This document shows positions 29,818 through 45,951 of a DNA stretch of 64,000 nt, piece after piece (the stretch's first letter is position 1; the number at the start of each line of letters is the position of its first letter). The DNA is from Ornithinibacillus bavariensis. Lineage in GTDB: Bacteria; Bacillota; Bacilli; Bacillales; Amphibacillaceae. A program made the position numbers and the translations under genes. The DNA lies in NCBI RefSeq assembly GCF_018333235.1, contig NZ_BORP01000002.1, forward strand, positions 372,001 to 436,000, read 5' to 3'. The notes below the pieces were generated by a model, which was given only the letters and a program-made list of their open reading frames with translations, ran no database searches and was not told where the DNA came from.

Positions 29818-30762
29818 ATGGACATTCATGAAAGACGACTTTTATTAAAAGTTGCTAAACTTTACTATTTGGAAGGTTGGACTCAAAGCGAAATAGCGAA
29901 GAAGGTAAATAAGTCGAGGCCGATAATATCGAAGTTTTTGAAGCAAGCTAGGGAGGAAAAGATAGTTGAGATTTATATTAAGGATGAAACTATTCATACT
30001 GTCACATTAGAAAGATTGATAGAGAATAAATACGGATTAAAGGAAGTTATTGTGGTGTCTTCAGCTGGAGATGGGCCAGAAATGGTGATGCGCAAGCTAG
30101 GTAAAGCAGCTGCTGATTATATTACGAAAAAACTAGATCAGATTAAATCCCTGGGAATATCTTGGGGAAAGTCCGTACATTCCGTTATAGAAGCAATTGA
30201 TTTTCATGAGAAAAGTCATATCCATGTTACACCATTGATTGGAGGGATGGGACAAAATCATGTCTATTACCATTCAAATCATCTTACAATGCAAATGGCC
30301 CAAAAATTGAATACTTCTTCCTCTTACCTGTATGCCCCAGCGATCGTAGAAAGTGTTGATTTAAGAAATCAAATTATTAAATCAAAAGACATAAGCGATG
30401 TACTGAATAAAGGAAAATCAGTTGACATGGCTATTGTTGGAATAGGAAGTCCAAGCTACAATGCGACAATGAACGAGTTGGGTTATGTTACAGAAGAGGA
30501 GCAAGCAAGCTTAGTGGAATACGGGGCTATTGGCGACATTAATTCGACCTTCTATAATGATGATGGAATTGCGGTGAATCATTCGTTAAATGATAGAACA
30601 ATTGGAATAAACTTAAGTGAATTAAGAGATATACCAGAGGTACTAGCAGTTGTTAATGGCATTCACAAGGTAGAAGGATTGGATGTAGCATTACGTCATA
30701 ACTACTTATCAACCATTGTTTTAGATGATATAACAGCAAGAGCACTTACACTAATTAAATAG
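29818..30762 (+). CDS. SorC-family sugar-binding transcriptional regulator (copy 2)
   Basis: 314 aa. HTH at about residues 18-52 (YYLEGWTQSEIAKKVNKSRP), effector domain with SLGISWGKSVHSVIEAID, IVGIGSPSY and GAIGDINSTFYNDDG. It is very similar to the copy at 25868 over its whole length. AGGTG lies 8 bases before the ATG. It is directly upstream of the glucitol-type PTS operon and divergent from glpD, so it is the best candidate to bind the 31-bp operator repeated in this region. Its ligand would be the phosphorylated polyol or its keto product. Confidence 0.92.
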   Translation: MDIHERRLLLKVAKLYYLEGWTQSEIAKKVNKSRPIISKFLKQAREEKIVEIYIKDETIHTVTLERLIENKYGLKEVIVVSSAGDGPEMVMRKLGKAAADYITKKLDQIKSLGISWGKSVHSVIEAIDFHEKSHIHVTPLIGGMGQNHVYYHSNHLTMQMAQKLNTSSSYLYAPAIVESVDLRNQIIKSKDISDVLNKGKSVDMAIVGIGSPSYNATMNELGYVTEEEQASLVEYGAIGDINSTFYNDDGIAVNHSLNDRTIGINLSELRDIPEVLAVVNGIHKVEGLDVALRHNYLSTIVLDDITARALTLIK

Positions 30763-30778
30763 ATTACAAGAATAAGTA

Positions 30779-30807
30779 TTGACAACTTTTTGAAAGCGCT
30801 TTATTAT
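30779..30807 (+). promoter_or_regulatory. Promoter of gutM-srlA-srlE with cre site in the spacer
   Basis: -35 TTGACA (30779-30784), 17-bp spacer, -10 TATTAT (30802-30807). A cre-like site TGAAAGCGCTTTAT (30791-30804) overlaps spacer and -10, so CcpA would block RNA polymerase when glucose is present. Confidence 0.8.
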
Positions 30808-30812
30808 TGTTT

Positions 30813-30843
30813 TAACAAATGTACCAACAAGTTACTTATGTAA
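30813..30843. promoter_or_regulatory. SorC-type operator O1
   Basis: Matches the 31-bp palindromic core at 32884-32914 at 25 of 31 positions (ACAAATGTA, CAAC, GTTAC and TGTAA conserved). It covers the expected transcription start. Confidence 0.7.
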
Positions 30844-30854
30844 AGAGGGATGTT

Positions 30855-31253
30855 ATGTGGGGTAAATTTATTATAATTTTTGCTTTAATCTGGGGATTAC
30901 AGTTTCTTTTAACGCAACTCCAAGTAAAACAATATCAATCCCAAATTAAAGAGTTTACAAAAAGAAAGTCTGGTTATTTAGGAACGGGATATTACAAAAA
31001 AAGATTAGGAACAGGAGCATTGGTTTTATTAGTTTGCGATGAACAGCTAGAAATAGTTGAAGCAAAGATAATGAAGGGAATTACTGTATTTGCTAGATTC
31101 AGAGATAAAAAAGAACTTATTGGAAAGAGCTTATTGCAAAGTAAGGATTCTGAATATTTGACCAATATGGAAAGAAATGCTCTGGTCGGTGCGGTACAAA
31201 TGATTGAAAAAGAAATAAACAAAAGGAAGGGGAATGAAGCATGGATTTCTTAA
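30855..31253 (+). CDS. gutM: Glucitol operon activator-like protein GutM
   Basis: 132 aa. One N-terminal membrane segment (FIIIFALIWGLQFLLTQL, about residues 5-22), then a basic cytoplasmic part with KRKSGYLGTGYYKKRLG and GRxK-like elements of the GutM family. In enterics GutM activates the glucitol operon; in Firmicutes it travels with srlA. ATG 30855 (AGAGGGA before it) is preferred to the ATG at 30819, which lies inside the operator and close to the transcription start. Its stop overlaps the start of srlA by 13 bases. Confidence 0.85.
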   Translation: MWGKFIIIFALIWGLQFLLTQLQVKQYQSQIKEFTKRKSGYLGTGYYKKRLGTGALVLLVCDEQLEIVEAKIMKGITVFARFRDKKELIGKSLLQSKDSEYLTNMERNALVGAVQMIEKEINKRKGNEAWIS

Positions 31254-31771
31254 TTTCGATTGCGGAAGGATTTATAGGTATGTTCCAAGAAGGCGGAGAA
31301 ACATTTATGGGACTAGTTACTGGAATTATTCCTATGCTAGTCGTATTAATTACAGCCGTCAATGCTCTAGTAAGATTTATTGGAGAAGAAAGAGTTAATA
31401 GATTTGCTCAAAAATGTACAAAATACTTTGTTCTTCGTTATACTATTTTCCCGTTCTTGGCGGTTTTCTTCTTAACAAATCCGATGTGCTATACTTTTGG
31501 GCGGTTCTTGCCAGAAAAGCAAAAACCAGCGTTTTACGATTCAGCAGTTTCCTTTGTACATCCAATAACAGGATTATTTCCACATGCAAATCCAGCTGAA
31601 TTATTTGTTTGGATGGGTGTGGCTGCAGGAATTACCGAACTAGGACTTTCGCTTGGTCCTTTAGCAATGCGATTTATGATTGTTGGTATTATTGTAATTT
31701 TATTACGAGGTATTGTTACTGAATTCATTACAGATCGAATGATGAAAAGCAGAGTGAAAAATGCAGCTTAA
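31241..31771 (+). CDS. srlA: PTS glucitol/sorbitol-type EIIC subunit
   Basis: 176 aa integral membrane protein with the IIC-Gut signature (LTNPMCYTFGRFLPEKQKPAFYDS, about residues 85-108, quoted by its ends; GLFPHANPAELFVW). About three to four membrane segments. Together with SrlE it forms the translocation channel and phosphorylates the incoming polyol. RBS GGAAGGGG. Overlaps gutM, so it is translationally coupled. Confidence 0.95.
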   Translation: MDFLISIAEGFIGMFQEGGETFMGLVTGIIPMLVVLITAVNALVRFIGEERVNRFAQKCTKYFVLRYTIFPFLAVFFLTNPMCYTFGRFLPEKQKPAFYDSAVSFVHPITGLFPHANPAELFVWMGVAAGITELGLSLGPLAMRFMIVGIIVILLRGIVTEFITDRMMKSRVKNAA

Positions 31772-31800
31772 TAGTGGAATTTATCGAAGGAGGTTAAGCT

Positions 31801-32838
31801 ATGAGTGAATTTAAATCTGTTAAGATTGTCAAAGGTTCCTCGGGTTGGGGAGGGCCGTTAATTATAACTCCAAGTGATAAACAAAAATATATTATCTCGG
31901 TTACAGGTGGTGGAATCCATAAGGTTGCGCAAGAGATTGCAGACCGCACAGGAGGTATAGCAATTGATGGATTTGAAAAGTCTGTCCCGAAAGAGGAAAT
32001 TGCCGCAGCAGTAATTAACTGTGGTGGAACTGCTAGAAGTGGTGTGTATCCTCGAATGGGTGTAAAAACAATTAACACATTCAGTAATTCACCTTCAGGA
32101 CCATTATTAAAGTTTATCAAAGAGGACAATTTTGTTTCTGGTGTAGATGTACAAAATATACAAGATGTAAGTGGAGAGGAAAACATTGCTGCAGCTGTGG
32201 ATAAGGGTGATACTTCATTAATGGACAAACAGGTTGCACAACAAGTTAAAGCAGAAGCTAAAGCTAAAGTAGCTGCACAAAATGGTAGTGGCAAGAAAGC
32301 TAATCCAATTATGAAATTTATTGAGGTTCTAGGAAATAAGGTGGGGAATGTCGTCAGTATCTTTTTCCAATCTGGCCGAGATACAATTGAAACGATAATT
32401 AAAAATATTTTACCATTCATGGCTTTTGTAAGTGCATTAATGGGAATCATCACTTTTACTGGTATCGGTGATTTAATTGCTAATTTTGTAGCACCTATGG
32501 CTACTAGTTTAATAGGTATGTTAATTCTCTCCTTAGTTGCAGCAATTCCAGTAATTTCACCTTTACTAGCGCCCGGTGCAGTTATTGCACAGGTTGTAGG
32601 GGTATTAATAGGTGTAGAAATCGCGAATGGAAATATTCCTCCACAAATGGCATTGCCAGCTTTATTTGCCATTAACCCACAAGTAGGAACAGACTTTGTT
32701 CCAGTTGGTCTCACCTTAGGTGAGGCAGATCCGGAAACGATTGAAGTAGGCGTACCTGCTGTACTATTCTCTCGCTTAATAACCGGGCCTGCTGCAGTAA
32801 TTATTGCGTATTTTGCTAGTTTCGGTTTATATAGTTAA
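31801..32838 (+). CDS. srlE: PTS glucitol/sorbitol-type EIIBC subunit
   Basis: 345 aa. The N-terminal IIB domain (about residues 1-150) contains the phospho-cysteine in VINCGGTARSGVYPRMGV. The C-terminal half is membrane-embedded (about 190-345), with NPQVGTDFVPVGLTLGEADP typical of the family. RBS GGAGG 5 bases before the ATG. The operon ends here or reads through into srlB, which has its own promoter in the 101-base gap. Family members carry glucitol, but the neighbouring enzymes suggest another polyol. Confidence 0.95.
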   Translation: MSEFKSVKIVKGSSGWGGPLIITPSDKQKYIISVTGGGIHKVAQEIADRTGGIAIDGFEKSVPKEEIAAAVINCGGTARSGVYPRMGVKTINTFSNSPSGPLLKFIKEDNFVSGVDVQNIQDVSGEENIAAAVDKGDTSLMDKQVAQQVKAEAKAKVAAQNGSGKKANPIMKFIEVLGNKVGNVVSIFFQSGRDTIETIIKNILPFMAFVSALMGIITFTGIGDLIANFVAPMATSLIGMLILSLVAAIPVISPLLAPGAVIAQVVGVLIGVEIANGNIPPQMALPALFAINPQVGTDFVPVGLTLGEADPETIEVGVPAVLFSRLITGPAAVIIAYFASFGLYS

Positions 32839-32855
32839 CTATTTAGACATCTTTA

Positions 32856-32884
32856 TTGACGGCTAAAAGAAAGCGCTTTATAAT
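32856..32884 (+). promoter_or_regulatory. Promoter of srlB and the SAF-domain oxidoreductase, with cre site
   Basis: -35 TTGACG (32856-32861), 17-bp spacer, -10 TATAAT (32879-32884). A cre-like AGAAAGCGCTTTAT (32868-32881) lies over spacer and -10, the same arrangement as at 30779. Confidence 0.8.
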
Positions 32885-32916
32885 TACAAATGTAACAACT
32901 TGTTACATTTGTAATT
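32882..32916. promoter_or_regulatory. SorC-type operator O2, perfect 35-bp palindrome
   Basis: Two 17-bp arms (32882-32898 and 32900-32916) are perfectly complementary around one central C. The core half-site is TTACAAATGTAACAA. It overlaps the -10 box and start site. This is the best copy of the motif and serves as reference for the others. Confidence 0.85.
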
Positions 32917-32939
32917 TTCTTTTATAGGAGTGTGGTAAA

Positions 32940-33305
32940 ATGAGTGAGTTTTTACAGTTAAATGTTGTTGAAATAGGGGAAGAAGCACTGTTTATGTTTG
33001 AAGAGTCTATGATGATTTTATTTAATGACACTGTACCAGCTGACTTGAAAGGAATTTCTGTTATTCATGATAACAGAAATATTACGGAAGAGATCAAAGC
33101 TGGAGATGAGATGGTAATTGGAAATGAAAGCTTTAAGATACTATTTGTTGGAGATAAGGCGAACGAAACATTACAAGAGCTTGGACATGCAACCATTAAT
33201 TTTAATGGTGAAACTAGTTCCGAATTACCTGGGACCATCTGTACGGAAAAAAAAGCAATCCCAGAGATAACGGGTAATTCTGTTATTTCTTTTCATAGAA
33301 GATAA
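32940..33305 (+). CDS. srlB: PTS glucitol/sorbitol-type EIIA subunit
   Basis: 121 aa. Soluble IIA-Gut: a phospho-histidine is probably in KGISVIHDN (about residue 44), and the C-terminal family signature ELGHATINFNG plus ELPGTI (about 81-103) is present. It passes phosphate from HPr to SrlE. RBS TAGGAGTG. It is on its own promoter with the oxidoreductase 17-26 bases downstream, separate from srlA-srlE. Confidence 0.93.
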   Translation: MSEFLQLNVVEIGEEALFMFEESMMILFNDTVPADLKGISVIHDNRNITEEIKAGDEMVIGNESFKILFVGDKANETLQELGHATINFNGETSSELPGTICTEKKAIPEITGNSVISFHRR

Positions 33306-33331
33306 TTTTAAACAGCCAAGGGGTGGAGAAT

Positions 33332-34621
33332 ATGTTAAATATTAATAGAAAGCTAGCGAAACTGGAAAGTGAAGGATCCTACATTCGAGTTGGTCTAGTA
33401 GGTGCTGGACAAATGGGAAGAGGGATGATTTCCCAGATTGAAAGTATGAAAGGTATGCGTGTTGTTATTACAGCTGATTTAGCAATTGAAAATATAACGA
33501 ATGCATATAAACATGCTGGTGTCGCTGTAACTGAAATTGTTTGCACAAATGATATAAAGGAAGCTTCTGCAGCAGTTCAAGCAAACAAAGTAGTGGCAAC
33601 AACAGACATGAAATTAGTTACTTCATTACACGAAGTTGATGTTGTTGTTGATGCAACTGGCGTTCCAAATATTGGTGCTGAAATCGCTTGGGATACAATA
33701 TTAAACAGAAAGCATATCGTTATGCTTAACGTTGAAGCGGATGTGACAGTTGGACCTTTGCTTAAGAAAATGGCTGATGCAAGTGGTGTCGTATATACTG
33801 GATCTGCTGGTGATGAGCCTGGTGCCATTATGGAGCTTTATGATTTTGCTGATGCTATGGGCTTTGAAATCGTAGCTCTTGGAAAGGGAAAAAATAATCC
33901 ATTGAATTTAGAAGCTAACCCAACAACAGCGGAAGCAGAGGCTAAGGCGAAAGGCTCGTCCCCAAAAATGCTTGCGTCTTTCCAGGATGGAACAAAAACA
34001 ATGGTGGAGATGAATGCTGTTGCGAATGCTACCGGTTTTTTACCTGATCAACCAGGTATGCATGGCTTTGAAGGAACCGTTCAAGATCTTCCGGGAATTT
34101 TTCTTGAAAAAGAAAAAGGAGGAAAATTAAACGGAAGAAGGATTGTAGACTTTGTTAACGGTGTGGCGCCAGGTGTTTTTGCAATTATTGCCTCAGATAA
34201 ACAAGAAGTAAATGCTGAAATGAAATATTTAAAAATGGGTGACGGGCCGAACTATGTTTTATTCCGTCCTTATCATTTAACGAGCTTGGAAACACCTCTA
34301 TCTATTGCGAAAGCTTATTTTGATAAAGAAGCTACTATTGCACCTTATTTCGGATTGCAGGGCGAAACAGTTACAGTTGCAAAGAAGGACTTAGAAGCTG
34401 GGGAACATTTAGATACGATTGGTGGATATACTGTTTACGGGAAATTGCTGAAAGCTACAGAAGCAAAACAGCAAAATGCACTTCCACTTGGACTTGTCGA
34501 TTCTAATGTTATATTAAAACGACCAATTAAAAAGGGAGAAATCATCACCTATGCTGATATTGAACAAACAAAAGAATCTACTATTTGGAAATTACGATCG
34601 ATTCAAGATAGGATGTTTTAA
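33332..34621 (+). CDS. NAD(P)-dependent oxidoreductase with SAF domain, DXR-like (DRL) family
   Basis: 429 aa. An N-terminal homoserine-dehydrogenase-like Rossmann domain (GLVGAGQMGRGM, residues 21-32; VVVDATGVPNIGAEIA; MLNVEADVTVG) is followed by a catalytic middle domain (GDEPGAIMELYDFADAMGFE, GKGKNNPLN) and a C-terminal SAF domain (about 365-425, LPLGLVDSNVILKRPIKKGE). Homologues are often misnamed FlgA or homoserine dehydrogenase. The Brucella DRL enzyme of this architecture converts 1-deoxyxylulose 5-phosphate to methylerythritol 4-phosphate, and related DRL-like oxidoreductases are uncharacterised. ATG 33332 has AGGGGTGG upstream. Here, inside a polyol PTS operon, it would more likely run in the catabolic direction. 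The architecture is sure; the reaction is inference. Confidence 0.8.
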   Translation: MLNINRKLAKLESEGSYIRVGLVGAGQMGRGMISQIESMKGMRVVITADLAIENITNAYKHAGVAVTEIVCTNDIKEASAAVQANKVVATTDMKLVTSLHEVDVVVDATGVPNIGAEIAWDTILNRKHIVMLNVEADVTVGPLLKKMADASGVVYTGSAGDEPGAIMELYDFADAMGFEIVALGKGKNNPLNLEANPTTAEAEAKAKGSSPKMLASFQDGTKTMVEMNAVANATGFLPDQPGMHGFEGTVQDLPGIFLEKEKGGKLNGRRIVDFVNGVAPGVFAIIASDKQEVNAEMKYLKMGDGPNYVLFRPYHLTSLETPLSIAKAYFDKEATIAPYFGLQGETVTVAKKDLEAGEHLDTIGGYTVYGKLLKATEAKQQNALPLGLVDSNVILKRPIKKGEIITYADIEQTKESTIWKLRSIQDRMF

Positions 34622-34709: not shown

Positions 34710-34740
34710 TTACAAATGTAACAGATTCGAACGGATGAAA
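34710..34740. promoter_or_regulatory. SorC-type operator O3, one strong half-site
   Basis: TTACAAATGTAACA (34710-34723) is identical to the left half of the perfect operator. The right half is degenerate. Confidence 0.6.
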
Positions 34741-34755: not shown

Positions 34756-35742
34756 ATGGATATGCTAAAATTAAACGTTCCAAATTCAATTACAAATGAT
34801 AAATTAATAGACCTTTATAAACAAATGTGGCAAATCCGTCTATTTGATGAAAAAGTAGATGAGTTTTTTGCAAAAGGAATGATTCATGGTACAACACACT
34901 TAGCGGTTGGCCAAGAGGCAAGTGCTGCAGGGGTTTGTGCGCTGCTTACTGTAGAGGATAAAATTACAAGCACACACCGAGGTCATGGACATTGTATCGC
35001 AAAAGGCGCAACACCAGATAAAATGATGGCTGAGTTATTCGGTAGAACAACAGGTTATTGTAAAGGAAAAGGTGGATCCATGCATATTGCAGACGTGGAA
35101 ATGGGGAACCTTGGAGCTAACGGAATAGTGGCTGGAGGAATACCACTTGCAGTAGGGTCTGCCTTGACTGCGAAAATGAAGCGTCTTGATTATGTAACGG
35201 TTTGCTTTTTTGGTGATGGAGCAACAAATGAGGGAAGTTTTCATGAGGCAGTGAATCTTGCATCTATTTGGGATTTACCGGTTATATTTGTGTGTGAAAA
35301 CAACCAGTATGGAATGTCAGGATCAGTTAAAGAGATGACAAGAGTTGAAAATATTGCCGACCGAGCACAAGCATACGGTATTCCTGGAGAAGTCGCAGAT
35401 GGTAACGACATTATTGCCATGATGAACGTAACGGATAAAGCAATTAAACGCGCCCGAAGTGGAGAAGGTCCAACCTTAATCGAGGCAAAAACATATCGTT
35501 GGAAAGGACATTCCAAGAGTGATGCGAAGAAATACCGTACGCGTGACGAAGAACAAGAGTGGCGCAAGAAGGATCCAATTAAACGTTATAAAGAAGTATT
35601 AATAGAGGCTGGATTGTTAACAGAAGAAAAGGCAGAAGAAGTTCGTCTTGCTGTAAAAAAAGAAATTGAGGATGCTGTTAAATTTGCTGAAGCTAGTCCA
35701 CAACCAACATTAAATGATCTTTTAACAGATGTGTATGCGTAG
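34756..35742 (+). CDS. acoA: Acetoin/2-oxoacid dehydrogenase E1 component, alpha subunit
   Basis: 328 aa, thiamine-diphosphate dependent. The ThDP motif begins GDGATNEGSFHEA (GDG at residues 153-155) and ends in ENN near 183. THRGHGHCIAKG and the phosphorylation-loop-like WKGHSKSDAKKYRTRDE are typical of AcoA/PdhA. Length and GMIHGTTHLAVGQEA near the N-terminus suit the acetoin-dehydrogenase branch. With AcoB it cleaves an alpha-hydroxyketone or 2-oxoacid and loads the acyl group on E2 lipoate. No AcoR or sigma-54 promoter is nearby; instead a SorC operator precedes it, so its substrate is probably an intermediate of the polyol pathway. Confidence 0.88.
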   Translation: MDMLKLNVPNSITNDKLIDLYKQMWQIRLFDEKVDEFFAKGMIHGTTHLAVGQEASAAGVCALLTVEDKITSTHRGHGHCIAKGATPDKMMAELFGRTTGYCKGKGGSMHIADVEMGNLGANGIVAGGIPLAVGSALTAKMKRLDYVTVCFFGDGATNEGSFHEAVNLASIWDLPVIFVCENNQYGMSGSVKEMTRVENIADRAQAYGIPGEVADGNDIIAMMNVTDKAIKRARSGEGPTLIEAKTYRWKGHSKSDAKKYRTRDEEQEWRKKDPIKRYKEVLIEAGLLTEEKAEEVRLAVKKEIEDAVKFAEASPQPTLNDLLTDVYA

Positions 35743-35754: not shown

Positions 35755-36738
35755 ATGAGGGAGATTACTTATTTAGAAGCTGTACGTGAAGCAATGAGTA
35801 TAGAAATGCGTAAAAATGAGGACGTATACATTTTAGGGGAAGATATTGGTGTATATGGTGGGGCATTTGGTGTAACCCGCGGAATGATTGAAGAATTTGG
35901 TCCGGAGCGCGTGCGCAACACTCCAATTAGTGAAGCTGGTATTGCAGGTGCCGCTGTAGGCTCAGCACTAACTGGAATGCGACCAATTTTGGAAATACAG
36001 TTCTCTGACTTTATTACAATCGCACTAGATCAAATGGTTAACCAAGCTGCGAAAATACGTTATATGTATGGTGGAAAAGGAAAAGTACCAATGGTGCTAA
36101 GAACACCCAGTGGATCTGGTACAGGAGCTGCCGCCCAGCATTCTCAAAGTCTAGAGGCTTGGGTTGCGCATATCCCTGGATTAAAAGTAGTTCAACCATC
36201 AACTGCCTATGATGCTAAAGGGCTGTTAAAGGCAGCAATGGATGATGACAACCCGGTAATTTTTTACGAGCATAAATTACTTTATAAAACGTCATCCGAA
36301 GTTCCAGAAGAGGAATACAGTATTCCTTTGGGAAAGGCAGATATTAAACGTGAGGGTTCGGATGTAACCATCGTAGCAACAGCAATAATGGTTCATAAGG
36401 CATTAGAAGCAGCTAAAGAGCTAGATAAAGAAGGAATTAGTGTAGAGGTAGTTGATCCACGTACTATCGTACCACTTGATAAAGAAACAATTGTCAATTC
36501 GGTTAAGAAAACAGGTAAGCTTATCGTCGTACATGAAGCCGTAAAACGTGGAGGAATTGGTGGGGAAATTGCGAGTGTTGTAGCGGAAAGTGAAGCATTT
36601 GATTATCTGGATGCTCCAATTAAACGCTTAGGGGGAGCTGAATCACCAGTGCCTTACAATCCAGAATTGGAAAGAGCACATATTCCACAAGTTCCAGACA
36701 TTATTACAGCTGTTAAAGAAACACTAAACCGAGCGTAA
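35755..36738 (+). CDS. acoB: Acetoin/2-oxoacid dehydrogenase E1 component, beta subunit
   Basis: 327 aa, the family length. [16 protein letters not shown] (residues about 28-43), [19 protein letters not shown] and the IEVQFSDF-like ILEIQFSDF are conserved features of E1-beta. The C-terminal half ([15 protein letters not shown]) is the transketolase C domain. It forms the alpha2-beta2 E1 with the product of the gene 12 bases upstream. RBS AGGAGGGG. Confidence 0.92.
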
Positions 36739-38111: not shown

Positions 38112-39488
38112 ATGAAGGAATTTGATGTAGCTATCATTGGTGGTGGTCCAGGTGGTTATGTTGCGGCTATTCGTGCTGCGAAGTCTGGTCTTTCGGTTGC
38201 TCTTATCGAAGGTCGAGATCTTGGTGGAACATGCCTTAACAGAGGCTGTATTCCATCAAAAACATTGCTAAAGCATGCTGAAATAATCAACAAAATAAAG
38301 GAAGCCAAAAACTACGGAATTACTGTTGGTGGTTTTACTTTTTCGATAGAAGAGATAGTAAAACGAAAAAATCAGGTTATTAGTCAACTTCAAAATGGAA
38401 TTAAAGGACTGTTAAGGCAAAACAAGATTACATTTTTTCACGGTTATGGAACAGTAACTCGTGATAAAAAGATAATCATCGATTTGAAAAATAATAAAGA
38501 AGAAATTCATGCAAATACTATCATCTTAGCAAATGGTTCTCAGACTTTTGTTCCTGAAATTCCTGGTCTTGATACAATCCGCTATCATACAAGTGATACA
38601 ATCTTTGACATTACGGAAGTACCAAAACGTCTCGTTATTATGGGGGGAGGCGTTATTGGATTAGAAATCGCTTGTGTGTTTAATAGTTTGGGGACTTCTG
38701 TAGAAATAGTAGAAATGGCTGAACGGGTTATTCCTTCTGAAGATCCTGATGCAACTACATTTTTGACAAAAGAATTGGTTGAAAAAGGGATTAACGTACA
38801 CACCTCTACCAAAATTACTGGATTTAAACGAGGGGCAAGTACCATTGTGGAATTAGATAGGGGTGGAGAGAAAGTATCCTTAGAAACGGATAGTGTACTT
38901 GTGTCTGTTGGACGTACACCTAATTTAACCGGAATTGAAGATTTAGGCCTAGTACTAAATGATCGATTTGTAAAAGTAGATCAGAATTTACAAACCTCAA
39001 TAGATGGTATATATGCAATTGGTGATTTAATCGGTGGATTCCAACTAGCACATGCTGCAAGTGCTGAAGGAATACATGTTATTAATCATATTTTAGGGGA
39101 GTCAAATAAAAAAGAAAGCGCAATACCACGTTGTATATACACGTTCCCGGAGATTGCTAGTGTTGGACTGACAGAAGACGAGGCCCGAGCGAAAGGCTAT
39201 AAAGTTCAATCTAAAAAAATAGACTTTGCGGGTAATGGAAAAGCAATTGCTGGTGGCGAGAATAAGGGATTTATGAAATTAATTGCTGATGAGAAATATG
39301 GAGAGATTCTCGGTGTAGTTATGGTTGGGGCACATGTTACGGAAATGATTAGTCAAGCAACTTCCTTTATTCATTTAGAAGGAACAGTTGATGAGATTAA
39401 TTCGATGATCTTCCCACACCCTACCATGTCGGAGTCATTATTTGAAAGTGCAGCTGCTTGGGTAGGAAAAGGAATTCATTATAATTAG
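38112..39488 (+). CDS. acoL: Dihydrolipoamide dehydrogenase (E3)
   Basis: 458 aa flavoprotein that reoxidises E2 lipoate with NAD. FAD motif IIGGGPGGYVAAIRAAKSG (residues about 8-26), redox disulfide GGTCLNRGCIPSKT (about 38-51), NAD motif MGGGVIGLEIACVF (about 178-191), second FAD motif YAIGDLIGG, and the catalytic base motif HPTMSES near 436. All features are present. AGGAGG lies 8 bases before the ATG. It closes the four-gene complex operon and is followed by a strong terminator. Confidence 0.95.
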   Translation: MKEFDVAIIGGGPGGYVAAIRAAKSGLSVALIEGRDLGGTCLNRGCIPSKTLLKHAEIINKIKEAKNYGITVGGFTFSIEEIVKRKNQVISQLQNGIKGLLRQNKITFFHGYGTVTRDKKIIIDLKNNKEEIHANTIILANGSQTFVPEIPGLDTIRYHTSDTIFDITEVPKRLVIMGGGVIGLEIACVFNSLGTSVEIVEMAERVIPSEDPDATTFLTKELVEKGINVHTSTKITGFKRGASTIVELDRGGEKVSLETDSVLVSVGRTPNLTGIEDLGLVLNDRFVKVDQNLQTSIDGIYAIGDLIGGFQLAHAASAEGIHVINHILGESNKKESAIPRCIYTFPEIASVGLTEDEARAKGYKVQSKKIDFAGNGKAIAGGENKGFMKLIADEKYGEILGVVMVGAHVTEMISQATSFIHLEGTVDEINSMIFPHPTMSESLFESAAAWVGKGIHYN

Positions 39489-39716: not shown

Positions 39717-39747
39717 TTACAAAGGTAATTAATTGGAACATTTGTAA
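39717..39747. promoter_or_regulatory. SorC-type operator O4
   Basis: 25 of 31 positions match the operator at 32884-32914, including TTACAAA, GTAA and ACATTTGTAA. It starts 3 bases after the -10 box. It ties the downstream transporter genes to the polyol regulon. Confidence 0.75.
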
Positions 39748-39772: not shown

Positions 39773-39785
39773 TGAAAGCGCTTCA
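39773..39785. promoter_or_regulatory. cre-like site
   Basis: TGAAAGCGCTTCA, one base shorter than an ideal cre palindrome. It lies about 50 bases downstream of the probable transcription start, where CcpA would act as a roadblock. Confidence 0.5.
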
Positions 39786-39835: not shown

Positions 39836-39854
39836 GTATGGAGGTATGAATCCG

Positions 39855-40337
39855 ATGGATTTCACAATCATTCTGGATTATTTTAATGATAATTTTCAGA
39901 ACTTTATAAAAATATTGCTAAGTGCTCTTTTAGGATTTTTGGTAGGACTGGATAGAGAGTACAAGAATAAGCCTGCTGGCATTAAAACCTATATGTTTGT
40001 ATCCGTTGCTTGCACCTTATTAACCATCGTCTCAATTGAAGGGGTTACAAAGTTTAGTAATTTACATGAAGGAGTTCGAATGGATCCACTTAGGCTCGCT
40101 GCCCAAATAGTTTCTGGATTAGGTTTTCTAGGGGCAGGAGTCATATTAAAGAATGGATTAAAGGTGCAAGGTCTTACCTCTGCAGCAATGATATTTTTAG
40201 TAGGAGGAATAGGGATTGGCATTGGATCTGGTTTTTATGGAATTGTAATCTTTTCAACTTTTATTTCAATGGTATTAGCCAGATTAGGGGATACGATTGA
40301 AAGGAAGAAAATCAAAAAAGAGAGGCTAGCAAGTTAA
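39855..40337 (+). CDS. MgtC/SapB-family membrane protein
   Basis: 160 aa. Hydrophobic N-terminal MgtC core with about four to five membrane segments. The conserved GFLVGLDREYKNKPAGIKTY (about residues 23-42) and RLAAQIVSGLGFLGAGVIL (about 77-95) define the family. A basic cytoplasmic tail ends the protein; the longer C-terminal ACT-like domain of MgtC is missing, as in many small SapB proteins. Family members affect Mg or phosphate homeostasis and F-ATPase. ATG 39855 is preferred to ATG 39846 because GGAGG (39840-39844) would be only 1 base from the latter. Why it lies in this regulon is unclear. Confidence 0.85.
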   Translation: MDFTIILDYFNDNFQNFIKILLSALLGFLVGLDREYKNKPAGIKTYMFVSVACTLLTIVSIEGVTKFSNLHEGVRMDPLRLAAQIVSGLGFLGAGVILKNGLKVQGLTSAAMIFLVGGIGIGIGSGFYGIVIFSTFISMVLARLGDTIERKKIKKERLAS

Positions 40338-40431: not shown

Positions 40432-41442
40432 ATGAAAAGGATAACGATTAAACTTTTAGCGGTATTGTTAATAGGAGTTATGTTGGTAGGATGTAGTGAT
40501 AAAAATGCTTCTGGAAAGAATAAAGATGTAACAGTTCATCTTTACACCTCTGAGTCACAAGATCAAGTTGGAGAGATGATGAAGGAATTTGAAAAAGAAA
40601 ATCCTGGGATTAAAGTAGAGATTTTTCGGACAGGCACAGAACAAGTAATTGCAAAAATGGAGGCAGAGCGCCAATCTGGAGGATTAGTAGCTGACATGGT
40701 CTGGTTTGCAGATATAGATTATTTTAATTCGCTTTCAGAGGAAGACCTACTGGAAGAGTATAAATCTCCGAATGCAGAAGGATTGGATGAAAGCTTTATT
40801 TATAATAATGGAAAGTATTATGAGGTTCGCCAAATATTCAATGTTTTAGCTTATAATACTACCCAGGTTAAAAACGCTCCGACTTCTTGGAATGACTTAT
40901 ATAGCACAGATTATAAGGGTAAAGCGGCTATGGCTAGCCCAAACTACTCAGGTGCTGCATTTCTTACTTTGGCTTCTATAGTTCATAATGATGATTTAGG
41001 TTGGGATTATTTTAAGTCTTTAAAAGAGAATGACCTAAAATTTGAACAGGGTAATGGTGCTTTGGCAAGTAAGGTAGCTAGCGGTGAGTACCACGTAGTA
41101 TCGGTAGTTGATTTTATGGCTAGAAATGCGAAAAATGAGGGCTCACCTGTTGAGGTAGTATGGCCTGAAGAAGGTGCGGTTATAATTCCAACTCCAGTTG
41201 GTATTATGAAAGATTCTGAAGTGAAGGATGCTGCGAAAAAGGTTTTAGATTTCCTACTATCAAAACAAGGACAAGAGATGTTTAAAGATCAAGGCTATAT
41301 TCCAGTTAATCCTGAAGTAGGAGTTCCAGAAAATGCTCCTGATACTGATGAAATTAATATCATGCCTCTAGATTTTGACTTTCTTAAAGAAAACAGAGAA
41401 AGCCTAAAGACTGGTTTCTCAGATATATTTGGTGAGCAATAA
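40432..41442 (+). CDS. ABC transporter substrate-binding lipoprotein
   Basis: 336 aa. Lipoprotein signal peptide with lipobox LVGC (lipidated Cys21). A periplasmic-binding-protein type 2 fold follows: VTVHLYTSESQDQVGEMMKEFEKENPG at the start of the mature part (quoted by ends) and WNDLYSTDYKGKAAMASP in the middle (about residues 148-165). It resembles the Fe(III)/thiamine/2-aminoethylphosphonate/polyamine group. The tyrosine-rich iron site is not clear, so a phosphorylated organic ligand or other anion is possible. First gene of a PBP-permease-ATPase set, 94 bases after the MgtC gene. Confidence 0.88.
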   Translation: MKRITIKLLAVLLIGVMLVGCSDKNASGKNKDVTVHLYTSESQDQVGEMMKEFEKENPGIKVEIFRTGTEQVIAKMEAERQSGGLVADMVWFADIDYFNSLSEEDLLEEYKSPNAEGLDESFIYNNGKYYEVRQIFNVLAYNTTQVKNAPTSWNDLYSTDYKGKAAMASPNYSGAAFLTLASIVHNDDLGWDYFKSLKENDLKFEQGNGALASKVASGEYHVVSVVDFMARNAKNEGSPVEVVWPEEGAVIIPTPVGIMKDSEVKDAAKKVLDFLLSKQGQEMFKDQGYIPVNPEVGVPENAPDTDEINIMPLDFDFLKENRESLKTGFSDIFGEQ

Positions 41443-41466: not shown

Positions 41467-43248
41467 GTGGACGAAATAAATAAATTTCGTCCAGATTTCC
41501 TTAATCTATTGAGAGAGAGGATAGTATTATTCATGTCACGAATAAATCATTCACCAAAAAGATTAGCGACTACTTCCTTTTTTAATGTAACGAACATAGT
41601 ATGGTGGATTATTGTCATATTAGTTGGATTTACAGTAATTTATCCATCATTAGTTTTAGTTGTAAAAAGCTTTGTGGCCAACGAGGAATTTTCCTTTGCT
41701 AATTATTATGCGATCTTTACCAATCCGGCAATTTTAAAAAGTATGATTAATAGTTTAATAGTCGTTATACCTTCAACTATAATTTCAACAATTATAGCGG
41801 TTGTCTTAGCATGGATCGTTGCAAGAACTAATCTACCAGGTAAAGGGATATGGCAAACCTTACTTGTCATACCTTATCTTATACCACCTTTTATTGGAGC
41901 GATAGCATGGACTTATTTACTTGGCCCTGTTGGCTTTTTCAATAAATGGCTAATGAACTTATTTAACACGACAGAACCGTTAATAGATATTTATAGTATT
42001 GGTGGAATGATTTTTGTAATGTCTATATATGGTTTTGCGATACCGTATATTATTATTCTTCCAACCATGAAAAAAATAAACGCATCGATAGAAGAATCTG
42101 CACGCATATCTGGTGCGAGTACTTTTAGAACCCTAAAGGATATTACAATCCCTATATTAGCACCGGCAATTTTAGGTGGAATGCTATTGTTATTTATGTA
42201 TCAAATGGCCGAGTTTGGTGCACCTGCAGTACTTGGTGCTCCAGATCAGATTAACTTAATGACAACACAGATTTATTATACGATTCTATCATCCGATATG
42301 CCGAACCATCTTCAAGTTGCGGCAGCACAATCTATGTTATTAGTTTTGCTAGGGATAATCGGGTTAAACATTTATTCAAGATTCACAAAGTCTAGTAAAT
42401 ATGTCGTTGTAAGTGGTAAAAGTGGATCAGCAGAAGTTACTAAATTAGGGAAATATAAATGGATTGTTCAAGTATTTTTAAGTTTAGTTGTATTGGTAAC
42501 CTTTGTTGCTCCAATGCTTGCAGTTTTAGTTACAAGTATTTCTAAAGTGTATGGCTTACCAGTAAGTTTATCTAATTTAACACTAAACAATTTTCTAAAG
42601 CTTTTCGAGCTTAGTTATATTCAGCGCTCCTTATTTAACAGTTTTGTCTTATCCGTAACTGCCGGGGCGGTAGTTGCTTTTTGTGGACTAATTATTGCTT
42701 ACATGACAATTAGAGGTAAGGCACTTGGTTCCAGTTTGATTAATTCATTAGTTGCAATACCATATGCTGTACCAGGAACGATAGTGGCACTAGCAATGAT
42801 TATGACTTTTTCAAAACCAGTACCTATTGTAGGCTGGCAGTTGTATGGAACCTTTATGATTTTGTTAATTGCATATTTAGCTAGATTTATGAATTTAGGG
42901 GTTACAACATTGTCAGGAGCGATTGGTCAAATTGATCCTGCTTTAGAAGAGGCAAGTAGAATTTCTGGAGCTTCCAAAGCTAGGTCATTCCGCGACGTTA
43001 TGTTACCTTTGTTACGGCCAAGCTTATATAGTGCATTTTTCCTTGTCTTAATCCCTGCTCTTGGAGAGATTTCTTTGTCTGCGTTATTATGGTCAGTTGG
43101 AAATGAAACCATTGGGGTATCCGTTTTTTCTACGCAAATGGAAGGAAAAGTGCTCCTAACAGCAGCATTGGCAATTCTATTACTGACGTTTACTATACTG
43201 TTAAATATAATTGCAAGGGTAGTCTCAAGAGGAAAAGTCGGTATTTAA
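41467..43248 (+). CDS. ABC transporter permease, fused two-domain (FbpB-like)
   Basis: 593 aa with about 12 membrane segments in two homologous halves (about residues 40-300 and 335-590). Each half carries the EAA loop (EESARISGASTFRTLKDITIP and EEASRISGASKARSFRDVMLP, quoted to family pattern by their first residues) that docks the ATPase. This duplicated layout is typical of iron and phosphonate importers. The frame starts at GTG 41467 with AAGAAGGA before it. ATG 41533 is an alternative that would lose 22 N-terminal residues not needed for the first TM. A stem-loop covers the GTG start. Confidence 0.9.
   Translation: MDEINKFRPDFLNLLRERIVLFMSRINHSPKRLATTSFFNVTNIVWWIIVILVGFTVIYPSLVLVVKSFVANEEFSFANYYAIFTNPAILKSMINSLIVVIPSTIISTIIAVVLAWIVARTNLPGKGIWQTLLVIPYLIPPFIGAIAWTYLLGPVGFFNKWLMNLFNTTEPLIDIYSIGGMIFVMSIYGFAIPYIIILPTMKKINASIEESARISGASTFRTLKDITIPILAPAILGGMLLLFMYQMAEFGAPAVLGAPDQINLMTTQIYYTILSSDMPNHLQVAAAQSMLLVLLGIIGLNIYSRFTKSSKYVVVSGKSGSAEVTKLGKYKWIVQVFLSLVVLVTFVAPMLAVLVTSISKVYGLPVSLSNLTLNNFLKLFELSYIQRSLFNSFVLSVTAGAVVAFCGLIIAYMTIRGKALGSSLINSLVAIPYAVPGTIVALAMIMTFSKPVPIVGWQLYGTFMILLIAYLARFMNLGVTTLSGAIGQIDPALEEASRISGASKARSFRDVMLPLLRPSLYSAFFLVLIPALGEISLSALLWSVGNETIGVSVFSTQMEGKVLLTAALAILLLTFTILLNIIARVVSRGKVGI
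41469..41492 (+). promoter_or_regulatory. Stem-loop at the start of the permease gene
   Basis: GGACGAAAT (41469-41477) and ATTTCGTCC (41484-41492) form a perfect 9-bp stem with a 6-base loop. In many importers such a hairpin keeps permease levels below those of the binding protein. Confidence 0.55.
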
Positions 43249-43261
43249 CTGGAGGATGAAT

Positions 43262-44311
43262 ATGAGTACATTAATATTGAAAAATATTACAAAAAAATAT
43301 AATAAGGATGTTGTCGTAAATAACTTTAATGCAGAGATAAATAAAAATGAACTGGTAACTATTGTTGGGCCATCAGGCTGTGGAAAAACAACAACTCTAC
43401 GGATGATTGCTGGTTTCATAGAACCAACTGAGGGCACAATTTCTGTTGATGGCAATGATTTAGTAAACAAGGATAAAAATGTTTTTATGGAGCCAGAAAA
43501 GAGGGAAATAGGAATGGTGTTTCAATCCTATGCAGTATGGCCACATATGAATGTCTTTAAAAATGTTTCTTATCCACTTAAATTAAGAAAAGTAAACAAA
43601 GAGGAACTTACAAGAAGGACTAGGGAGGCCCTGCGATTAGTACATTTAGAGAAATACGAAAATAGCTTTGTACATGAATTATCAGGTGGACAACAGCAAA
43701 GGGTTGCATTAGCAAGGGCATTAGTAATGGAGCCAAGGTTACTTTTACTTGATGAACCACTTTCTAACTTAGATGCAGCATTGCGAGAGACAATGCGAAG
43801 TGAAATTAAAGAAATTCAAAGAAAATTGGAAGTAACAATAATCAATGTTACCCATGATCAAACAGAAGCGATGACAATGTCAGATAAGGTTATCATTATG
43901 AATAAAGGTTCTATTATTCAAATCGGTACTCCTGAAGAAATTTATAACAATCCAGCTAATTCCTTTGTAGCCAAATTTATAGGGTCTGCAAATTTGATTA
44001 ATTGTAAGTTAGTTACGGAGTCTGAATCGACTATGATGGTTGAAGTATTTGGTGAACATCTTGAAATTGAACGAAAAGAGACGCTTAATGAGAATGGAAT
44101 ATTATCAGTAAGGCCACACCATATTACACCTATGGAGAACTCAACGTTAAAAGGAAAAATTATTAGAAAGCTATATCAGGGCGATAGGATTGAATATCAC
44201 TTACAAGTAGAAGAAGAAGTAATTCGGATGATAACAGATGCAAGTTATAATTATCCAGTAGATGACGTAATTGGCTTCCAAATAACTAAAGGAATCTGGT
44301 TAAATGACTAA
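43262..44311 (+). CDS. ABC transporter ATP-binding protein (FbpC/PotA-like)
   Basis: 349 aa. Walker A GPSGCGKTTTLRMIAGF (residues about 36-52), Q-loop VFQSYAVWPHMNV, signature LSGGQQQRVALARALV (about 140-155), Walker B LLLLDEPLSNLDA, H-loop THDQ. A C-terminal TOBE-like domain (about 240-349) is present. ATG 43262 sits 6 bases after GGAGG; ATG 43256 would touch the box. It energises the permease encoded just upstream. Confidence 0.93.
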   Translation: MSTLILKNITKKYNKDVVVNNFNAEINKNELVTIVGPSGCGKTTTLRMIAGFIEPTEGTISVDGNDLVNKDKNVFMEPEKREIGMVFQSYAVWPHMNVFKNVSYPLKLRKVNKEELTRRTREALRLVHLEKYENSFVHELSGGQQQRVALARALVMEPRLLLLDEPLSNLDAALRETMRSEIKEIQRKLEVTIINVTHDQTEAMTMSDKVIIMNKGSIIQIGTPEEIYNNPANSFVAKFIGSANLINCKLVTESESTMMVEVFGEHLEIERKETLNENGILSVRPHHITPMENSTLKGKIIRKLYQGDRIEYHLQVEEEVIRMITDASYNYPVDDVIGFQITKGIWLND

Positions 44312-44337
44312 TAGATGAAGTCTGGGAGTTTGATAGA

Positions 44338-45075
44338 ATGATGAAAGTTACTATTTTGGGATATTGGGGTGGCTATCCAAAAGATGGAGGAGCTACATCG
44401 GGGTATTTAATTACCACAGAAGAAGGAAATGTTCTGGTAGACTGTGGCAGTGGAGTAATGAGTAAGCTGACAAAAAGTCTAACAGTAGATGATTTATGTG
44501 GTGTAGTATTAAGTCATTTACATGATGATCATATGGCAGATATTGGTGTTATCCAATATGCAGCGCTAGGTTCACTAAGAAATGGAAGGATGAAGGATAA
44601 ACTACCTTTGTATGCATCAAATAGTCCAGAAATATTATGGTCACGGTTACAAAGTGATGCCACTAAAAATACGGTAATAGATGAGAGTAAGAGTATTGAG
44701 CTAGCTGGTATAACGATAGACTTTCTAAGTGTTAACCATACTATACCTTGTTTTGCTATGCGGTTTACATACCAGGATAAGGTTATCGTATACTCTGCAG
44801 ATACTGAATATATAGATAGGTTAGTAGAGTTTTCAAAGGACGCAGATCTATTTATTTGTGAGGCAACGATTTGTGAAGGAAGTGTTCATACAGTTGGCAA
44901 AGGACATATGGATGCAAAAGAGGCTGGGCTCATAGCAAAAAAAGCGAACGTAAAAGAATTAGTCTTAACACATTTACCTCATGATGGAAATTTTGACAGG
45001 ATGAAGGAAATGGCAGCTTCTGTTTTTGATAAAGAAATCCATCTCGCGAATGAGAAGAGTGTGTACAGGTTGTAG
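44338..45075 (+). CDS. MBL-fold metal-dependent hydrolase
   Basis: 245 aa. The metal-binding HxHxDH motif is HLHDDHMAD (residues about 61-69). Further ligands are in NHTIPCFAMRF (His about 138), YSADTEY (Asp about 155) and LTHLPH near the C-terminus. This pattern is that of the RNase Z/PhnP-like branch, which contains cyclic phosphodiesterases. It is 26 bases after the ATPase gene and in the same operon as a HAD phosphatase, so it may open or hydrolyse a phosphoester ligand brought in by the transporter. The substrate is not known. Confidence 0.85.
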   Translation: MMKVTILGYWGGYPKDGGATSGYLITTEEGNVLVDCGSGVMSKLTKSLTVDDLCGVVLSHLHDDHMADIGVIQYAALGSLRNGRMKDKLPLYASNSPEILWSRLQSDATKNTVIDESKSIELAGITIDFLSVNHTIPCFAMRFTYQDKVIVYSADTEYIDRLVEFSKDADLFICEATICEGSVHTVGKGHMDAKEAGLIAKKANVKELVLTHLPHDGNFDRMKEMAASVFDKEIHLANEKSVYRL

Positions 45076-45096
45076 AATAACTTAGAGGTGAGCACA

Positions 45097-45951
45097 ATGT
45101 ATAAACTGCTAGCGTTAGATATGGATGGAACATTATTAAATGGAAAAAAAGTAATTACAGAAGAAGTATCAACACAATTAAAAAAACTAAATGAAAATCA
45201 AATAGATGTCACGTTAGCAACAGGAAGGTTTCCGGCATCTGTATGGCTTCACGCTAAGAAGCTAGAATTAAAATGTCCCCTTGTTGCATTAAATGGATCT
45301 GTGATACTTGACGCTAAATCCGGAGAAGCGTTAAGGACAACTTCTATTGAAAAGGATGTATTATATAAGATAGCAACCTTCTTTGAAAAAGAAAATGTGT
45401 ATTTTCACTTTTACGGATATAATATCTTAGTGGTTGAAGAGATTAATGAAATGAACCAAAGATGGGCACTTGGAAATGTTGTCATGAATTCCAATTATGA
45501 ATTACTATCGAAAAACTACGAAGATCAATTAAAACATTTTAGCTTGAACAAAGTAGGTAAACTATCAGAGTTTGTTGAAAATGACAATCTACCAATCTTC
45601 AAGGTTACCGTTATAAATGATGATGTTGAAGTGGTTGACAGGCTCTATAATGAGGTAAAAGAATGGCCAGAGCTTAATATTACTAGAACTGGAAAGCGAA
45701 GATTTGATATCAATGCCGCCGGCGTAAGTAAAAAATCTGCCTTAATTGATGTTTGCCAAGATAGAAATATCAGACGTGAAGAAGTAGTTGCAGTTGGCGA
45801 TTATGATAATGATATCGAGATGATCCAATGGGCCGGATTAGGAGTAGCGATGGGAAATGGTAACAATGCAGTAAAAGATATAGCAGACACAATAACACTT
45901 TCAAATGAAGAAGATGGTGTAGCGGAGGTAGTAAAAAAGTACTTTAAATAA
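45097..45951 (+). CDS. Cof-type HAD-IIB phosphatase
   Basis: 284 aa. Motif I LLALDMDGTLLNGKK (residues 4-18) with the nucleophile Asp and acid/base Asp, motif II LATGR (about 45), a C2B cap domain in the middle, motif III Lys in KKSALIDVC, and motif IV VAVGDYDNDIEMIQWAG (about 232-248). Cytoplasmic sugar-phosphate or nucleotide phosphatase. ATG 45097 has AGAGGTG 6 bases upstream. Last gene of the mgtC-transporter operon, which ends at a strong terminator. Confidence 0.93.
   Translation: MYKLLALDMDGTLLNGKKVITEEVSTQLKKLNENQIDVTLATGRFPASVWLHAKKLELKCPLVALNGSVILDAKSGEALRTTSIEKDVLYKIATFFEKENVYFHFYGYNILVVEEINEMNQRWALGNVVMNSNYELLSKNYEDQLKHFSLNKVGKLSEFVENDNLPIFKVTVINDDVEVVDRLYNEVKEWPELNITRTGKRRFDINAAGVSKKSALIDVCQDRNIRREEVVAVGDYDNDIEMIQWAGLGVAMGNGNNAVKDIADTITLSNEEDGVAEVVKKYFK

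Follow-up and report, generated by a model that had tools for sequence, protein, structure and literature searches.

A candidate catabolic route from 2-C-methylerythritol through 1-deoxyxylulose 5-phosphate in Ornithinibacillus bavariensis

In Ornithinibacillus bavariensis, a gene for a DRL protein, apparently related to an enzyme of isoprenoid biosynthesis, lies between genes of a glucitol-type phosphotransferase system (PTS) and genes of a complex resembling acetoin dehydrogenase. What could such a set of genes do? We analysed a stretch of 64,000 nucleotides (the window; assembly GCF_018333235.1, contig NZ_BORP01000002.1, positions 372,001 to 436,000), which is part of a 3.47-Mb assembly, 96.74% complete. 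The genes may encode a route that converts 2-C-methylerythritol via methylerythritol 4-phosphate (MEP) and 1-deoxyxylulose 5-phosphate (DXP) to acetyl-CoA and glyceraldehyde 3-phosphate. Judging from sequence data, we put the probability of the full scheme at about 0.68. That DRL and the E1 component of this complex belong to one catabolic regulon is, in our judgement, nearly certain.

All genes of the unit at positions 29818-39488 are on the forward strand. A SorC/DeoR-type regulator (SorC2, 29818..30762; PF04198, 238.6 bits) is followed by GutM (30819..31253; PF06923, 87.8 bits) and the glucitol-type PTS components EIIC (31241..31771; PF03608, 267.9 bits), EIIBC (31801..32838; PF03612 and PF07663; NF049924, 451.7 bits with cut-off 400) and EIIA (32940..33305; PF03829, 120.8 bits). 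Thus GutM, EII-GUT, both the N and C parts of EIIBC-GUT, and PTSIIA_gutA each score over the Pfam cut-off. The likelier start of GutM is the ATG at 30855, as a candidate operator overlaps the first ATG. Then come DRL (33332..34621, from an ATG at 33332 within an open reading frame (ORF) that spans 33323-34621 from a GTG), E1 alpha (34756..35742; PF00676, 310.6 bits), E1 beta (35755..36738; NF006667, 410.9 bits with cut-off 321), the E2 acyltransferase with a lipoyl domain and two E3-binding stretches (36751..38100; PF00198, PF00364, PF02817) and E3, dihydrolipoyl dehydrogenase (38112..39488; TIGR01350, 536 bits with cut-off 408.8). An earlier interpretation made without database searches (the sequence-only reading) had named the glucitol-type PTS, DRL and the E1-E3 operon at 34756-39488; the ORF list and family searches bear this out, and every gene named by it in 29818-45951 is an intact ORF. 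The same ORF list and searches revealed no sorbitol-6-phosphate dehydrogenase in 29818-45951.

The DRL protein contains the domains DRL_cat (PF21135, 223.3 bits), NAD_binding_3 (PF03447, 27.2 bits) and SAF (PF08666, 24.3 bits), all over the cut-offs. It matches the Brucella DRL (PDB 3upl/3upy) with 352 bits and 176 identical residues of 422 aligned (41.7%). PMC3847144 lists the substrate and dimer residues of DXR-II, describes eleven family members verified by complementation, and notes that T229 is replaced in DLO1 and DLO2. The residues E174, F178, K191, K193, T229, R320 and Y322 (Brucella numbers) are all identical in the window protein, which agrees with the Brucella enzyme at 23 of the 25 positions examined. 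E174, K191, K193, T229 and R320 are invariant in all 76 DRL rows (the window, 73 of the 74 loci described below, L140 and L144; L079, with broken frames, has no row) and in seven of seven more distant ones. F178 varies in one of the 76 rows, and Y322 in one of the 76 and one of the seven. Four of the five low-scoring homologues were compared (G054 was left out); they lack E174, K191, T229 and R320 and retain K193 and G121, carrying N, K, V, Q/M and S/A at positions K191, K193, T229, R320 and E174, respectively. By family, by identity and by the seven active-site and dimer residues, the window protein is predicted to be a DXR-II, in agreement with the grouping proposed for it in the sequence-only reading. 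The low-scoring homologues (L134-L137, 28-29% identical to the window DRL) lie in apparent polysaccharide-type clusters and lack most of the DXR-II residues examined.

The host itself contains a single DRL gene. Neither dxr nor ispG was found in its 96.74% complete assembly, and the HMG-CoA synthase gene mvaS is present (553.6 bits). Since dxr and ispG are absent from the genome as assembled, DRL cannot serve the MEP pathway of isoprenoid synthesis there. We analysed a sample of 120 genomes, including that of O. bavariensis. DRL-domain proteins occur in 22 of them, 18 of these above 190 bits. Among the latter 18 genomes, seven have ispG over the cut-off and the same seven have dxr, and eleven have neither; in none of the 18 is DRL the sole DXR of a MEP pathway. 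Orthologues of E1 alpha with at least 70% identity were found in 18 of the 120 genomes, 16 of which have DRL above 190 bits. The two genes thus occur together in 16 genomes, each alone in two, and neither in 100 (Fisher test 7e-16, kinship ignored). In G113 they are about 0.24 Mb apart.

The scan for DRL yielded 74 loci, two of them from one Domibacillus species. Neighbour lists leave out ORFs shorter than 100 amino acids and matches covering less than half of the reference, and the names transketolase, RPE, short-chain dehydrogenase and AcoR-type activator were assigned by eye. Genes of the Gut PTS are present in 61 loci, E1 or E2 genes in 52, both in 47, and all four genes of the complex in 43. 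Eight loci contain neither PTS nor E1/E2; one of them is on a 6.5-kb contig, and L061 has a Gat-type PTS instead. E1 was observed near DRL in 20 genera, with varying gene order and strand: it comes after DRL in Oceanobacillus and Planococcus and ahead of the PTS in Marinococcus, and Salinicoccus has it in divergent orientation. A 9.3-kb contig of the actinomycete Candidatus Hakubella lacks a PTS and carries SorC-DRL-E1a-E1b-E2, followed by the first part of E3. A neighbourhood search of this kind had been suggested together with the original proposal; its outcome, 47 of 74 loci with DRL, E1/E2 and Gut PTS and 16 of 20 genomes with both DRL and E1 among those with either, is favourable to it.

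Several other features of these loci deserve mention. In L062, L063 and L074, with Gut PTS and DRL and no E1 seen, there are genes for a HAD-IIA phosphatase and a relative of AraM-type glycerol-1-phosphate dehydrogenase; upstream in L062 and L063 there is also an FGGY kinase, together with a large protein similar to activases. Of 104 loci scanned, 45 encode a protein of 104-117 amino acids with paired CxxC motifs, which in several cases adjoins DRL or E3 (examples of the protein are L190:5253-5567, reverse strand, and L140:10087-10440, forward strand). The L190 copy matches nothing in NCBIfam at 1e-6, neither of the two copies reaches a Pfam cut-off, and no such protein was found in the window. 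We also considered a division of DRL into two classes, DRL-a, which alone would occur with E1, and DRL-b (44-47% identical), occurring with transketolase. This was rejected, as G037, G049 and G079 have DRL-b beside E1.

The unit seems to be held together by a common operator. Palindromes TTACAAATGTAAC-N5-GTTACATTTGTAA were found upstream of gutM (30813..30843), of IIA-DRL (32884..32914, a perfect palindrome) and of the downstream MgtC-ABC operon (39717..39747). The site before E1a (34710..34740) has one perfect half and one weak half. The palindromes at 30813/30831, 32884/32902 and 39717/39735 are all in the same 18-nt register. With at most two mismatches, TTACAAATGTAAC has 12 matches in the window versus 4.28 +/- 2.10 expected, a number reached in none of 100 shuffles, and seven of the 12 fall at the four promoters of the unit. 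Candidate cre-like sites on the forward strand precede gutM (30791..30803), IIA-DRL (32868..32880) and the MgtC-ABC operon (39773..39785); these are three in the window versus 0.40 expected, with as many in one of 100 shuffles. Thus, of the similar operators ascribed to all these genes in the sequence-only reading, the shared motif stands at four promoters and is palindromic at three, but the promoter of E1a has a half-site only. The operator matrix was built from the window's own sites, whose high scores are therefore built in. As a control, the window was shuffled by mononucleotides 20 times, the highest score then being 16.5. In other loci, sites scoring at least 17 were observed before E1a in 14 of 17 cases (the exceptions are L009, L010 and L011). 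Where IIA-DRL or DRL has its own promoter, such a site precedes it in 11 of 13 loci (the exceptions are L043 with 15.8 and L122 with 13.0). The operator was also found before the GatA-AraD operon in all three loci scanned and before DRL in L077, and the Planococcus, Marinococcus and Paenibacillus loci scanned, one of each genus, all show the signal.

Analysis of the E1 component sets it apart from acetoin-type E1. In a quick tree, all E1 alpha proteins linked to DRL or to Gat genes fall in one clade (SH-aLRT 96) of 61 rows, including the G033 sequence, which is from another context and appears twice; nine acetoin-type rows (eight different) are outside it. Thr46, Thr47 and Lys254 are present in 59 of 59 clade rows, G033 left out, versus Phe, Val and Glu in eight of eight acetoin-type rows; the counts also leave out rows L104/L121, L111, L112, L115/L127 and L128, a copy of L105. 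When aligned with human pyruvate dehydrogenase (PDH), position 46 corresponds to a phenylalanine, and position 254 to a methionine two residues past the loop histidine. We take both to be sites of the E1 pocket, for which the PDH residue numbers are F61, H63 and H263. With its smaller side chain and added positive charge, the pocket would suit a larger, phosphorylated substrate.

The same split was seen in a further set, 398 genomes of the same phylum with at most five candidates scored per genome, which gave 42 E1 alpha matches with E <= 1e-115. The surroundings were read for 40 of them (G000 and G113 left out). Thr46 and Lys254 occur in 18 of the 40, with DRL in the stretch for 15; Phe46 and Glu254 occur in 19 and other residues in three, with DRL nearby in none of the 19 and none of the three (signature versus DRL neighbour, Fisher test 9e-8, kinship ignored). 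Since 39 of the 40 are 53-61% identical to the window protein (L185 is 67% identical), overall similarity does not explain the split. Position 47 is variable in this set, often being Cys or Phe. The three Thr46/Lys254 loci without DRL are L186, on a 4.4-kb contig, L187, with a Gat PTS, and L207, where a kinase and two alcohol dehydrogenases are encoded together with a relative (45%) of the 4-epimerase. Sugar, polyol or kinase/epimerase entry genes were found near E1 in 17 of the 18 loci with the signature. Reading the E1 alpha loci of this set also led us to abandon the view that genomes of the anaerobe type lack E1.

The complex had originally been described as one of the acetoin dehydrogenase type. 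The complete set E1a-E1b-E2-E3 agrees with this. However, the window E1 falls outside the acetoin-type clade and differs in the pocket, and by these features it is predicted to be a member of a sister clade of acetoin dehydrogenase with a changed pocket, not an ordinary acetoin dehydrogenase. The clade with the motifs PGFVH and GHFEGD is taken to be acetoin dehydrogenase from the loci of its members.

Two unusual E1 genes were noted in passing. G008, a genome without dxr and ispG, has a second E1a-E1b pair (83% and 86% identity; L123:8872-15208) with the Thr/Lys signature and no adjoining E2 or E3. It lies before a candidate thiamine pyrophosphate riboswitch and tenI-thiO-thiG-thiF, the riboswitch being between E1b and tenI. 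ThiG uses DXP, and this second pair may make DXP for thiamine. In G033 (L121, 9264-13982), an E1-E3 operon has Arg at position 254, and its neighbours were read as a CoA transferase, a lyase, a short-chain dehydrogenase and a phosphotriesterase-like protein. This could be a third substrate class.

The genes that may supply E1 with its substrate are of several kinds. The first module is that of the window, Gut PTS, DRL and E1. In Metabacillus, Priestia and Ectobacillus, DRL and E1-E3 genes are accompanied by an MFS transporter (RbtT/DalT/CsbX, 527.7 bits with cut-off 375 in L034) and an FGGY kinase that is ribulokinase-like (340 bits, below the cut-off of 428); of the genes of the complex, L034 and L041 show E2 and E3 alone, where the stretch ends. 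A third module, in Paenibacillus thalictri (L077), consists of an ABC transporter, a metallo-beta-lactamase-fold (MBL) hydrolase and a HAD phosphatase with DRL and E1, and there is no PTS in 21 kb; in L204 the ABC pair (52% and 48%) adjoins E1, DRL and PTS. The fourth module, galactitol-type (Gat) PTS, L-ribulose-5-phosphate 4-epimerase (278.5 bits with cut-off 251 in L119) and E1 with no DRL, was found in G007 and G028. In G006 this set stands beside a DRL-PTS operon, and both routes are together in L047 and L139/L142. Finally, G113 has a Gat PTS, an alcohol dehydrogenase and two genes similar to short-chain dehydrogenases with E1. As a kinase can take the place of the PTS, what enters the cell is probably a free polyol needing phosphorylation. 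As the 4-epimerase can take the place of DRL, the compound within reach of both a MEP reductoisomerase and a pentulose-5-phosphate 4-epimerase would be (1-deoxy)xylulose 5-phosphate, and the acetoin-type ancestry of the complex suggests the 1-deoxy form. Hence the entry modules would converge chemically on DXP.

The proposed scheme is as follows. The glucitol-type PTS would import 2-C-methyl-D-erythritol, or a close 2-C-methyl tetritol, and release it as MEP, which DRL would turn into DXP. In the sequence-only reading, 2-methyltetrols from isoprene oxidation were suggested as a possible source of such compounds. Acetoin dehydrogenase splits CH3-CO-CHOH-R to acetyl-CoA and an aldehyde. E1 with its thiamine diphosphate would likewise cleave the CH3-CO-CHOH-R group of DXP, glyceraldehyde 3-phosphate would leave, and the acetyl group would pass via lipoyl-E2 to CoA, with E3 yielding NADH. 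In the net reaction, a C5 compound would give C2 and C3 products, both entering central metabolism. The ABC transporter behind the same operator may import a phosphorylated form to be trimmed by the MBL hydrolase and the HAD phosphatase. The SorC regulators and cre-like sites would turn the set on when the substrate is present and better sugars are absent. As far as this scheme can be judged from genomes, the DXR-II residues, the absence of dxr and ispG, the co-occurrence of DRL and E1, the operator and the E1 pocket argue for it.

A number of observations weigh against this scheme. In the window DRL, Q replaces V at position 351 of the Brucella enzyme and H replaces A at position 64, and 11 of 76 DRL rows have Asn in place of H250. 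The E1a operator in the window is a half-site. As the equilibrium of DXR lies towards MEP, the route would depend on the E1 step to draw it forward. No E1/E2 was found in the stretch examined in 22 of the 74 DRL loci, including loci of Treponema and of Alkalibacter/Eubacteriaceae, where the DRL neighbours are AraM, HAD-IIA and an FGGY kinase; in such loci either DXP has other fates or the substrate differs. G017 and G067 have DRL and PTS without E1 alpha of at least 70% identity, and an apparent transketolase, RPE and an aldolase are encoded nearby in G017, where an ordinary pentulose phosphate would suit. Conversely, G007 and G028 have E1 without DRL. Rows of one clade are not independent. 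The GlpD-like and alcohol dehydrogenase genes upstream of the unit and the MgtC gene downstream of it (see below) have no place in the scheme, and the link of the ABC transporter to DRL and E1 is limited to three loci (the window, L077 and L204), close relatives lacking the transporter.

In another version of the route, the substrate of DRL would be apiitol phosphate, a 2-C-hydroxymethyl tetritol phosphate, and its product xylulose 5-phosphate, which either E1 would convert to glycolyl-CoA and glyceraldehyde 3-phosphate or transketolase would take over. In its favour, DRL adjoins an apparent transketolase gene in L122 and L124, the latter with RPE and an aldolase as well, and ribulose-5-phosphate 4-epimerase normally yields xylulose 5-phosphate. 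However, transketolase would leave a dedicated E1 complex unnecessary, glycolyl-CoA would be a poor product (genes using it were not searched for), and this E1 is sister to the acetoin-type E1, whose known substrate is CH3-CO-CHOH-R. We consider this version unlikely.

Alternatively, the complex could be an ordinary acetoin (or pyruvate) dehydrogenase that merely shares the polyol regulon. This seems quite improbable, as E1 forms a clade of its own with pocket residues unlike those in all 19 acetoin-signature rows, five genomes (G156, G234, G267, G294 and G478) carry both signatures in separate loci, and the genome of O. bavariensis has three other E1 alpha genes, 33-36% identical. Moreover, the acetoin-type loci read gene by gene (L128, L192 and L212) have an apparent AcoR-type activator instead; none was found between 25778 and 45951, where SorC proteins are the only regulators. 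On the other hand, the window E1 alpha is close to the cut-off of the PDH model TIGR03182 (388.9 versus 393.85), and none of 26 PDB matches is named acetoin dehydrogenase, so that there is no solved one for comparison.

Another explanation, with little chance of being right in our opinion, is a polyol pathway in which the substrate of DRL is not a branched tetritol phosphate and E1 takes another 1-deoxyketose or a 2-oxo acid. The unexplained GlpD-like and alcohol dehydrogenase genes that accompany the unit in relatives would be consistent with this, as would the Gat PTS, alcohol dehydrogenase and two apparent short-chain dehydrogenases adjoining the same E1 in G113, but the active-site residues of DXR-II are conserved, and the modules found can be drawn to 1-deoxypentulose 5-phosphate. 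Finally, DRL could be an isoprenoid DXR like that of Brucella, next to an unrelated PTS. This would agree with family membership and with the complementation reported for the family in PMC3847144, but is already contradicted by the host genome, which lacks ispG and dxr and has HMG-CoA synthase, by the 0 of 18 genomes with DRL as sole DXR of a MEP pathway, and by the operator common to PTS and E1, so its probability is close to nil.

Downstream of the unit, positions 39846-45951 encode, on the forward strand, an MgtC-family membrane protein (39846..40337; PF02308, 111.2 bits; a 44% relative is present in L077), an ABC substrate-binding protein of the iron/sugar-phosphate/phosphonate type (40432..41442; PF13343, 125.3 bits; phnS2, 151.9 bits, below the cut-off of 392.75), a permease with two BPD stretches (41467..43248; PF00528), an ATPase (43256..44311; PF00005, 130.9 bits), an MBL hydrolase (44338..45075; PF12706, 67.2 bits; PDB 1zkp and 6kns) and a HAD (Hydrolase_3) phosphatase (45088..45951; PF08282, 212.3 bits). 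Since the promoter of these genes shares the operator and cre-like signals, the right-hand boundary at 45951, suggested from the outset, is reasonable. The best PDB match of the binding protein is 4r72, followed by 8x1a, by 6wce, which binds pyridoxal 5-phosphate, and by many proteins that bind iron or polyamines; we take 4r72-4r75 to be sugar-phosphate binders (AfuA). The best matches of the transporter elsewhere among the 120 genomes are 36-41% identical, in 12 genomes, and thus close relatives of the window lack it.

One could see here a dedicated scavenging of isoprenoid intermediates of other organisms: the PTS would take free methylerythritol and the ABC transporter MEP or methylerythritol cyclodiphosphate (MEcPP); the MBL hydrolase would open the ring of MEcPP, the HAD phosphatase would remove the extra phosphate, giving MEP, and all this would feed a new DXP dehydrogenase (acetyl-transferring) complex in a host without the MEP pathway. 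Export of methylerythritol cyclodiphosphate by engineered E. coli is reported in PMC3487848. Most PDB relatives of the binding protein bind iron, and the ABC transporter is linked to DRL and E1 in three loci only; we therefore regard this extension as possible rather than probable.

Upstream of position 29818 there are the genes of another SorC/DeoR-type regulator (SorC1, 25778..26824, forward strand; PF04198, 263 bits; SorC relatives are present in most loci) and, on the reverse strand, of a zinc alcohol dehydrogenase (26864..27904; PF08240/PF00107) and a GlpD-like FAD dehydrogenase (27916..29583; DAO and DAO_C; glycerol3P_ox_1, 434 bits, below the cut-off of 840). All three accompany the PTS-DRL-E1 unit in close relatives. 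Loci of Oceanobacillus, Ornithinibacillus, Virgibacillus and Lentibacillus keep the dehydrogenase pair (26864-29583) beside the unit, and it also occurs with a PTS IIA in Domibacillus (L036); perhaps it serves another tetritol. Farther downstream in the window, a YhfZ-type regulator is followed by a phosphotriesterase-family protein (48225-50113).

If the proposed route from methylerythritol is correct, the first steps of isoprenoid synthesis run in reverse in a relative of Bacillus, so that a branched sugar alcohol becomes ordinary fuel, and methylerythritol is a bacterial food. There would be a new activity, DXP + CoA + NAD+ -> acetyl-CoA + glyceraldehyde 3-phosphate. This could be why some bacteria keep an isoprenoid enzyme without an isoprenoid need, and DXR-II would be no safe sign of the MEP pathway, which is relevant for engineers handling DXP. 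A catabolic role with a matched E1 would also explain the patchy occurrence of DXR-II in many Bacillota. For the spread of DXR-II, PMC3847144 and PMC13001223 give no known pattern beyond an excess among pathogens and favour gene loss as its cause, and strains with DXR-II beside DXR-I or without the MEP pathway are counted in the former. Catabolism of methylerythritol or DXP by PTS, DXR-II or an acetoin-type complex was not reported in the PMC literature among the matches listed.

The candidate route resembles several known systems. Its PTS has the same GutM, IIC, IIBC and IIA as Gut PTS operons, but here DRL replaces sorbitol-6-phosphate dehydrogenase. The E1 alpha/beta, lipoyl E2 and E3 operon is similar to AcoABCL, whereas the E1 belongs to a separate clade, has HGTTH and GHSKSD in place of PGFVH and GHFEGD of the acetoin enzymes, and is under a SorC operator. 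As in DXS, a thiamine diphosphate enzyme would act on the same carbon skeleton, at the same C2-C3 bond; however, DXS is from another protein family and works in the other direction, joining pyruvate and glyceraldehyde 3-phosphate. According to PMC3424233, mutated aceE, encoding E1 of PDH, lets E. coli make DXP. This is a precedent for an E1 handling DXP chemistry, although those are laboratory mutants of another E1 type acting in the synthetic direction. Lastly, the DRL shares with DXR-II of Brucella (3upl/3upy; Carretero-Paulet 2013, PMC3847144) the domain order, 41.7% identity over 422 residues and the seven named residues. Unlike the Brucella enzyme, DRL of the window type is in a PTS/E1 regulon, in hosts that lack the MEP pathway or have DXR-I too, and would convert MEP to DXP.

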